DNA of 64,000 nucleotides from NCBI RefSeq assembly GCF_030848495.1, contig NZ_JAVDDT010000007.1, forward strand, positions 124,001 to 188,000. The letters run 5' to 3'. Numbering within the stretch: the first letter of the stretch is position 1; every line of letters starts with the position of its first letter. The stretch comes from Natronospira bacteriovora (GTDB lineage: Bacteria; Pseudomonadota; Gammaproteobacteria; Natronospirales; Natronospiraceae). Under the pieces are notes generated by a model. The model did no database searches and was not told the origin of the DNA. It worked only from the letters and a program-made list of their open reading frames with translations. Positions 34,767 through 35,461 of this stretch are shown here, piece by piece. Position numbers and translations under genes: made by a program.

Positions 34767-34856
34767 GGAGAGGTGGCTGAGTGGTCGAAAGCGCTCCCCT
34801 GCTAAGGGAGTGAGTCCTAACGGGCTCCGAGGGTTCGAATCCCTCCCTCTCCGCCA
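34767..34856 (+). tRNA. serV: tRNA-Ser (GCT)
   Basis: A 90-base class II tRNA. The acceptor stem GGAGAGG pairs with CCTCTCC, the anticodon loop CTGCTAA gives GCT, a long variable arm is present, and CCA is encoded. It follows csrA, as in E. coli (serV). Confidence 0.97.
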
Positions 34857-35035
34857 GATTATGAGGTGCCGCCAAATCAGCGGTTGGCACTTGCCTCGCA
34901 GGCAGCTGAATTCGAACCCGATGGAGGGTTCGACAAATTCGCCGGGAGCGAATTTGAACTGCGAAGCGAAGCGGAGCAGGCCCGGAGGGCGGAGCGCATG
35001 GATGCGCGGAGTAATCCCTCCCTCTCCGCCAGATT
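34838..35035 (+). repeat. tRNA-linked element after tRNA-Ser
   Basis: The last 19 bases of the tRNA plus GATT (34838-34860) are repeated exactly at 35013-35035. Between them are a CGAACCC/GGGTTCG hairpin with loop GATGGA (34912-34932), a 9-bp hairpin CAAATTCGC-CGGGA-GCGAATTTG (34934-34956) and GCGCAT-GG-ATGCGC (34994-35007). The same element type follows tRNA-Arg. No coding region is seen. Confidence 0.85.
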
Positions 35036-35110
35036 CGGCTAATACCACTAGGTGTGGTGATTGGCTATTGCGGGTGAAGTCTTGGTTCGAACCCGAAAGC
35101 GGGTTCGGCG

Positions 35111-35139
35111 TTGACGGAAGCCGCGTTTTTCAGCATAAT
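35111..35139 (+). promoter_or_regulatory. promoter of tRNA-Arg
   Basis: TTGACG at 35111-35116, a 17-base spacer and CATAAT at 35134-35139, followed by a GC-rich discriminator. This gives tRNA-Arg its own promoter after the tRNA-Ser element. Confidence 0.75.
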
Positions 35140-35177
35140 GCGCGGCTTTCCCGTCCAGGGAAAAGCGCAGAAAATCA

Positions 35178-35254
35178 GGGGCTGTAGCTCAGTTGGATAG
35201 AGCGTTCGGCTACGAACCGAGAGGTCGGGGGTTCGAATCCTCCCAGCCCCGCCA
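35178..35254 (+). tRNA. argV: tRNA-Arg (ACG)
   Basis: A 77-base tRNA. The acceptor GGGGCTG pairs with CAGCCCC, the anticodon loop CTACGAA gives ACG (read as ICG after deamination), and CCA is encoded. The order csrA, Ser(GCT), Arg(ACG) matches E. coli csrA-serV-argV. Confidence 0.97.
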
Positions 35255-35461
35255 TACAAAAACCCCCGCCGTGCAGGCGGGGGTTTTTTTATGGCTGATT
35301 GTGAAGATTATTCGAACCCCCGACCTCTCATTAAAAATGATAGCGGTTCGACAAATTTGCCGGGAGCAAATTTGGACTTTCGCCGGAGGCGGAAGGCCCC
35401 GGAGCGCAGCGGAGGGGTGAGGCCCAAGGACGGGCCGAACAATCCTCCCAGCCCCGCCATA
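35236..35461 (+). repeat. tRNA-linked element after tRNA-Arg
   Basis: The 3' end of the tRNA with CCATA (35236-35256) is repeated exactly at 35441-35461. Within are an inverted copy of the tRNA variable/T-arm region (35311-35329), the hairpin CAAATTTGC-CGGGA-GCAAATTTG (35352-35374) and GGCCC-AAGGAC-GGGCC (35421-35436). Both tRNA 3' ends are followed by a terminator. Confidence 0.85.
35263..35290 (+). terminator. intrinsic terminator of tRNA-Arg
   Basis: Stem CCCCCGCC / GGCGGGGG (35263-35270 with 35276-35283) followed by seven T residues. Confidence 0.95.

Follow-up and report, generated by a model that had tools for sequence, protein, structure and literature searches.

Repeated tRNA ends in Natronospira bacteriovora belong with the tRNA-linked repeats and probably enclose a mobile hairpin element

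In the window, by which we mean the whole 64-kb stretch of Natronospira bacteriovora DNA analysed here, a tRNA-Ser and a tRNA-Arg gene are each followed by an exact repeat of their own 3' end, CCA included. What lies between a tRNA gene and the second copy of its end, and how could it have come to be there without loss of the gene? The preliminary description of this locus proposed a small element family that targets or copies tRNA 3' ends and restores the gene on insertion. Here we follow the intervening sequence through this genome, its relatives and the phylum, and weigh the explanations that could account for it.

Layout of the two tRNA loci

The repeat behind tRNA-Ser is 23 nt long (AATCCCTCCCTCTCCGCCAGATT, offset 175 nt) and that behind tRNA-Arg is 21 nt long (AATCCTCCCAGCCCCGCCATA, offset 205 nt); the probability of an exact 21-mer repeat arising within 1 kb by chance is about 1e-10 to 1e-9. 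Both intervals contain GGTTCGACAAATT, at 34927 and 35345, within 34 nt that they share at 91% identity, as well as a 9-bp hairpin with the loop CGGGA (HP1) and a second hairpin just before the repeat (HP2), so that every repeat and hairpin noted in the preliminary description is present as described. Three further features emerged. Each core, of about 90 nt with two hairpins, lies exactly inside a split T loop, the order being GGTTCGA, core, AATCC...CCA as compared with GGTTCGAATCC in the tRNA; each core is preceded by an inverted tRNA copy of the T loop or variable region; and the terminator of tRNA-Arg is duplicated behind the 3' copy. The features of the two loci are as follows, with bit scores from the two covariance models, R1 and R2, that are introduced below.

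34767..34856, plus strand: tRNA-Ser(GCT), intact (ARAGORN, Rfam RF00005)
34910..34919, minus strand: short inverted copy of the tRNA-Ser T loop, ATTCGAACCC (from the sequence; kept in the congener G002)
34927..35012, plus strand: core 1 with the left T-loop half GGTTCGA (34927-34933), HP1 at 34934-34956 and HP2 at 34994-35007 (R1 60.8 bits, R2 85.2 bits)
35013..35035, plus strand: copy of the tRNA-Ser 3' end (AATCCCTCCCTCTCCGCCA) plus GATT, an exact repeat of 34838-34860; its first 19 nt are the same in G002
35086..35107, plus strand: hairpin TTCGAACCCGAAAGCGGGTTCG (direct repeat family D4), resembling the antisense/sense T-loop pair of the element without a core; perhaps an element remnant
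35178..35254, plus strand: tRNA-Arg(ACG), intact (ARAGORN, Rfam RF00005)
35258..35290, plus strand: first terminator-like hairpin with a T run (from the sequence and an inverted-repeat search)
35310..35329, minus strand: 20-nt inverted copy of tRNA-Arg positions 42-61, 100% complementary to 35219-35238
35345..35440, plus strand: core 2 with GGTTCGA (35345-35351), HP1 at 35352-35374 and HP2 at 35421-35436 (R1 80.8 bits, R2 87.0 bits)
35441..35461, plus strand: copy of the tRNA-Arg 3' end (AATCCTCCCAGCCCCGCCA) plus TA, an exact repeat of 35236-35256; its first 19 nt are the same in G002
35464..35492, plus strand: second terminator-like hairpin, a homologue of that at 35258..35290 with 80% identity (direct repeat D1)

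An Rfam search of the window matched the two tRNAs alone. Comparison with G002 showed that the two 3' copies are identical in 38 of 38 positions, whereas the cores are 67% and 84% identical and the flanks 59-74% (ungapped positions). As the cores and flanks diverge while the copies do not, the 3' copies are either under constraint or gene-converted from the tRNA. For the 5S-linked case in Escherichia coli, recognition by RNase E has been suggested (PMC8144298).

Distribution, structure and insertion sites of the core

The core was followed with two covariance models, R1, built from 11 cores with no E. coli sequence among them, and R2, built from 48 sequences with their flanks, including rrB and one tyrT unit. 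The E-values of both models are rough, and since R2 includes flanks it favours T-loop sites. In the 64 kb of the window R2 scored the two cores, both of which belong to its training set, at 87.0 and 85.2 bits; the next-best hit, at 61257-61351, reached 16.5 bits and looks like a chance match.

In the whole genome (G000; 3.0 Mb, 43 tRNA genes) R1 detected 29 cores, 17 at tRNAs and 12 in surroundings of the hexamer repeat (CGACAA)n. Cores within a split T loop accompany about nine tRNAs (Ser-GCT, Arg-ACG, Arg-CCG, Arg-CCT, Lys-CTT, Gln-CTG, Ser-TGA, Thr-CGT and Val-GAC), and five more (Ser-CGA, Phe, Pro-CGG, Pro-GGG and Lys-TTT) show an altered or partial arrangement. Units occur in tandem at Arg-CCT (three of 194 bp) and Lys-CTT (two of 213 bp), and Ser-TGA has three cores in tandem. 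Reversed cores are found at Arg-CCT, Lys-CTT, Thr and Val, and whichever way a core points its HP1 abuts the TTCGA of the T loop. The twelve stand-alone cores form a distinct subfamily of 88-89 nt located in or beside (CGACAA)n arrays (loci L070-L084); pure arrays of this hexamer or its complement are scattered through the genome, and in the window they are found at 24003-24035 and 62104-62137.

The covariance models recover the core across genomes, which bears out the earlier claim of a real element family. R1 matches were present in 21 of the 39 genomes of the relatives search, this genome counted; across the phylum, R2 had matches at E<=1e-6 in 75 of the 398 genomes. Among the best matches examined, 22/28 with R1 and 20/29 with R2 have a tRNA no more than 600 bp away; in 20/28 and 15/29, respectively, 11 nt or more of that tRNA recur exactly in the flank. 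Most matches stand behind a tRNA gene and close with the 3' end of that very tRNA, in support of the preliminary description; the two outcomes named in advance as contrary, matches mostly away from tRNAs and loss of the repeated ends in relatives that keep the core, were not encountered. A degenerate pattern of the left end identified 19 loci in a species collection, most of them at a tRNA or tRNA fragment, in hosts that include Dyella, Rhodanobacter, Woeseiaceae, Thiohalobacter, Alteromonas, and Mariprofundus and other Zetaproteobacteria.

The general plan of the core is HP1, one or more middle hairpins and HP2. HP1 and HP2 covary strongly, with 97.4% of the cells paired and a covariation score of 0.625 versus 0.167 for shuffles and at most 0.108 for slid versions, and GGA is nearly invariant in both hairpin loops. 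The rarity of G-U pairs in the cores (6/573) was considered as proof of a palindrome at the DNA level, yet because tRNA acceptor stems have 16/861 and T stems 57/615 it is suggestive only.

Orthologous tRNA sites in two congeners were found empty, filled, multiplied or reduced to a remnant (e.g. Val-GAC, Lys-CTT, Thr-CGT and Arg-CCG). The Val-GAC site is empty in G001, a remnant in G002 and filled in the present genome, where the native terminator comes after the distal copy and the tRNA itself is followed by a flank other than the native one. At three loci (L128, L130 and L132) a 5'-complete tRNA broken in its T loop lies upstream of an intact copy, and L119 shows a decayed form of this arrangement. 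Cores were also detected in anticodon loops, directly after the anticodon (Ser-TGA at L089 and L108; Ser-CGA at L109, in repeated 217-bp units). The insertion point is after A58 in the T loop and after position 36 in the anticodon loop, so that the two kinds of core are alike in following the fifth base of a seven-base loop.

Sites other than tRNAs are used as well. At L091 a core stands between a 5S gene and a second copy of the 5S 3' end. At L209 (G300) the core interrupts a repeat that we take, by the published consensus, to be ERIC; its flanks, once joined, match repeats present in 5,395 of the 5,426 E. coli genomes. A core in a similar repeat was noted at L216 (G421). ERIC itself is a palindrome different from the core. 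Longer ERIC copies with internal insertions of about 70 bp exist, and cores such as those in the L209 and L216 repeats may explain these variants. Protein genes of G399, among them those for an SNF2-type helicase and a PglZ protein, contain several cores that are read in frame (L226). The two regions of this genome, L225 and L226, hold about 15 cores, many of them in frame within ORFs, one encoding a DUF6079 protein, and they resemble Rickettsia palindromic elements.

Two further observations concern the tRNA loci. The antisense T-arm copy before the core often carries a change of GGATTCGAACC to GGATGAGAACC or GGATGCGAACC (L090, L113, L114, L117, L120, L126 and L127, and E. coli tyrT, L193). 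A long palindrome that continues the terminator hairpin and contains the antisense of the tRNA 3' end is present at L114, L120 and the G002 tRNA-Ser loci L157, L159 and L161, the last three of which retain little or no core.

Kinship with the tRNA-linked repeats of E. coli

The first of the tRNA-linked repeats (TLRs) came to notice in 1978. They are described as lacking a known function; E. coli has 22 of them at ten loci, with an 18-19-bp identity to the 3' end of the gene as their hallmark (PMC8144298). Searching chosen E. coli loci, rather than the whole chromosome, with R1 gave 42.9 bits (E 9e-9) for the rrnB T1-T2 spacer, which encodes the rrB sRNA, and at the tyrT (rttR) locus the three tyrT repeats, to which the preliminary description had pointed, were the top matches. 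R2 added the tyrT-tyrV spacer, a site behind lysV and the arg cluster; in the glyVXY, leuQPV, argX-proM and glyW-leuZ tRNA operon regions it found no core.

Both window elements lie directly downstream of a tRNA gene, both carry a 3'-end copy that is identical in 19 of 19 nt up to CCA (23 and 21 nt with flank), and both are homologous in sequence and structure to E. coli TLRs. As the models recover the E. coli TLRs, the window elements are, judged by sequence, members of the TLR family, and they lie outside the Enterobacterales to which the reported rrB homologs are limited (PMC8144298). Like the E. coli repeats at tyrT/rttR and rrA/rrB/rrF they stand behind a tRNA or 5S gene with an 18-19-bp copy of its 3' end, occur as tandem units and have a homologous core. 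Unlike in E. coli, many more tRNAs per genome carry an element, both orientations occur, a prominent inverted tRNA copy lies in front, and insertions in T and anticodon loops are clear. In the open-access literature we found no description of TLRs as insertions, though an earlier description elsewhere is possible; what appears to be new is the behaviour of the element, namely its orientation, its varied sites and its presence or absence at orthologous tRNAs.

Alternative origins and a proposed course of insertion

The resemblance to genomic islands that enter tRNA genes by means of tyrosine recombinases is considerable, as the duplication covers the usual att span, T loop to CCA, and the tRNA is kept intact. 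A miniature integrative element brought in by an event of this type at the T loop would carry its own tRNA 3' end and leave att-like repeats; the native terminator behind the distal copy at Val-GAC, and the non-native flank behind the tRNA there, would be expected of an element arriving with a 3' end of its own, and tandem units do occur. Yet the 175-205-bp elements contain neither genes nor an integrase, the core is common to different tRNAs whereas the 3' end is specific to the tRNA of each element, and the interrupted upstream copies and the anticodon-loop, 5S-linked and intragenic ones do not fit. The left-end pattern is absent from viral contigs, and a viral origin was discarded. We consider an integrative element unlikely. 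If no mobile element were involved at all, local tandem duplication together with palindromes made by template switching at the tRNA and terminator hairpins would have to suffice, and indeed units are tandemly repeated and long palindromes join the tRNA 3' end to the terminator (L114 and L120), some of them nearly coreless (the G002 Ser loci). However, a homologous, covarying core is common to different tRNAs, the 5S-linked copy, the ERIC-like repeat and protein genes in several classes, and this shared core refutes duplication and template switching as the whole explanation, leaving it highly improbable. Equally improbable is that the core is a palindrome of the REP kind, mobilised by a Y1 transposase of RAYT/IS200 type that would act on hairpins in single-stranded DNA. 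The hairpins close to either end, whose GGA loops are similar, would suit such an enzyme, as would the fixed YGA that forms a short left flank and the preference for hairpin loops, and the only Y1 gene found in this genome is a RAYT-like ORF. That gene (L192, contig C5, ~201536-201865) is flanked by its own REP, GTGGGAGAGGCTTTAGCC..., which is unrelated to the core; 31 Y1 loci (98 kb) contained no core except for one 14-bit match (E 0.04), and in 3 of the 14 core-bearing genomes tested no Y1 gene was matched. Y1 genes with cores beside them were seen neither in this genome nor in 14 other core-bearing genomes, so that mobilisation by Y1/RAYT was rejected, and the search for a mobilising enzyme among the Y1 transposases of these 15 genomes yielded none. 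The core resembles REP/RAYT and the GTAG/CGTC repeats in being short, palindromic, without coding capacity and intergenic or sometimes intragenic, but differs from the described REP families in having no GTAG or CGTC tag, a larger body with 2-3 hairpins, no Y1 association and a preference for tRNA loops (PMC3733652). A likeness in kind may also be drawn to the Rickettsia palindromic elements (RPE) and Yersinia YPAL/RU-2, which are likewise non-autonomous and palindromic with an enzyme that is not known; RPE can lie in frame in genes and YPAL inserts at sites of dyad symmetry, and in this comparison, made by description, no duplication of tRNA ends is described for them (PMC2229807). ERIC, with its longer insertion-bearing copies, is comparable through the core inside the ERIC-like repeat of L209.

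Function rather than mobility could also account for conservation. For rrA, rrB and rrF of E. coli CsrA titration has been proposed; the rrB RNA is transcribed by read-through and processed, and in vitro it binds CsrA and Hfq, for which the GGA motifs are needed (PMC8144298). The elements might accordingly be conserved as read-through sRNAs that titrate CsrA through their GGA loops and spread by their usefulness, with the 3' copy guiding RNase processing. Consistent with this, GGA is nearly invariant in both loops of the core and lies on the transcribed strand in both window elements, the Arg element is enclosed by dual terminators as at rrnB, and the 3' copies seem constrained. On the other hand, the reversed copies (Thr, Val, Lys-CTT and Arg-CCT) keep GGA equally well although it is on their other strand, so that read-through from the tRNA would carry the complement, and the intragenic copies keep the GGA loops too. 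The window cores fold no more stably than shuffled sequence (z -1.2 and -1.1), and among the 22 E. coli TLRs only rrA, rrB and rrF are predicted to bind CsrA, with modest phenotypes (PMC8144298). As reversed and intragenic copies retain the loops, a role as CsrA sponge cannot be the general reason for their conservation, and as an account of the family it is improbable, while individual copies may have been recruited as CsrA binders.

Based on the homology and paired structure of the cores, their exact position, both orientations, tandem units, presence or absence at orthologous sites, other contexts and the recovery of E. coli TLRs, we propose that the window intervals are TLRs whose core is probably a mobile hairpin element of about 70-95 bp that inserts at YGA^A, typically in the loop of a hairpin. 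At tRNA genes the core would occupy a second, incomplete copy and leave the full tRNA intact; a single-copy tRNA might tolerate insertion only together with tandem duplication of the adjacent segment, and the surviving product would then be an intact tRNA and an interrupted partial copy, in whatever order these events took place. The 3' copy could subsequently persist either because RNase processing requires it or because the tRNA converts it, and the element may be transcribed by read-through between two terminators, like E. coli rrB. This proposal retains part of the earlier one. Most matches are indeed at tRNAs, yet the conserved unit is the hairpin core and not the 3' end, which is not defining because the core is also found in upstream tRNA copies, anticodon loops, next to 5S, in the ERIC-like repeat and in genes. 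Likewise, the intact tRNA and the empty and filled orthologous sites are compatible with restoration of the gene on insertion, but more cases are accounted for by a duplication whose redundant copy carries the core.

We also think it likely, if with slightly less assurance, that TLRs, the rrnB T1-T2 spacer, the insertions in ERIC-like repeats and the in-frame peptide insertions of some genomes represent a single hairpin element, widespread and recently mobile, of the Gamma- and Zetaproteobacteria, which would enter hairpin loops at YGA^A with a preference for T and anticodon loops, be coupled to target duplication and be moved by a putative enzyme. The rrnB T1-T2 spacer is used in many expression vectors, and a standard vector terminator region would then carry such an element. 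If this is true, TLRs would gain an origin and extend to several bacterial classes, and their mechanism would become testable. How such a small element repeatedly enters essential single-copy tRNA genes without killing the cell is an intriguing question that these loci raise.
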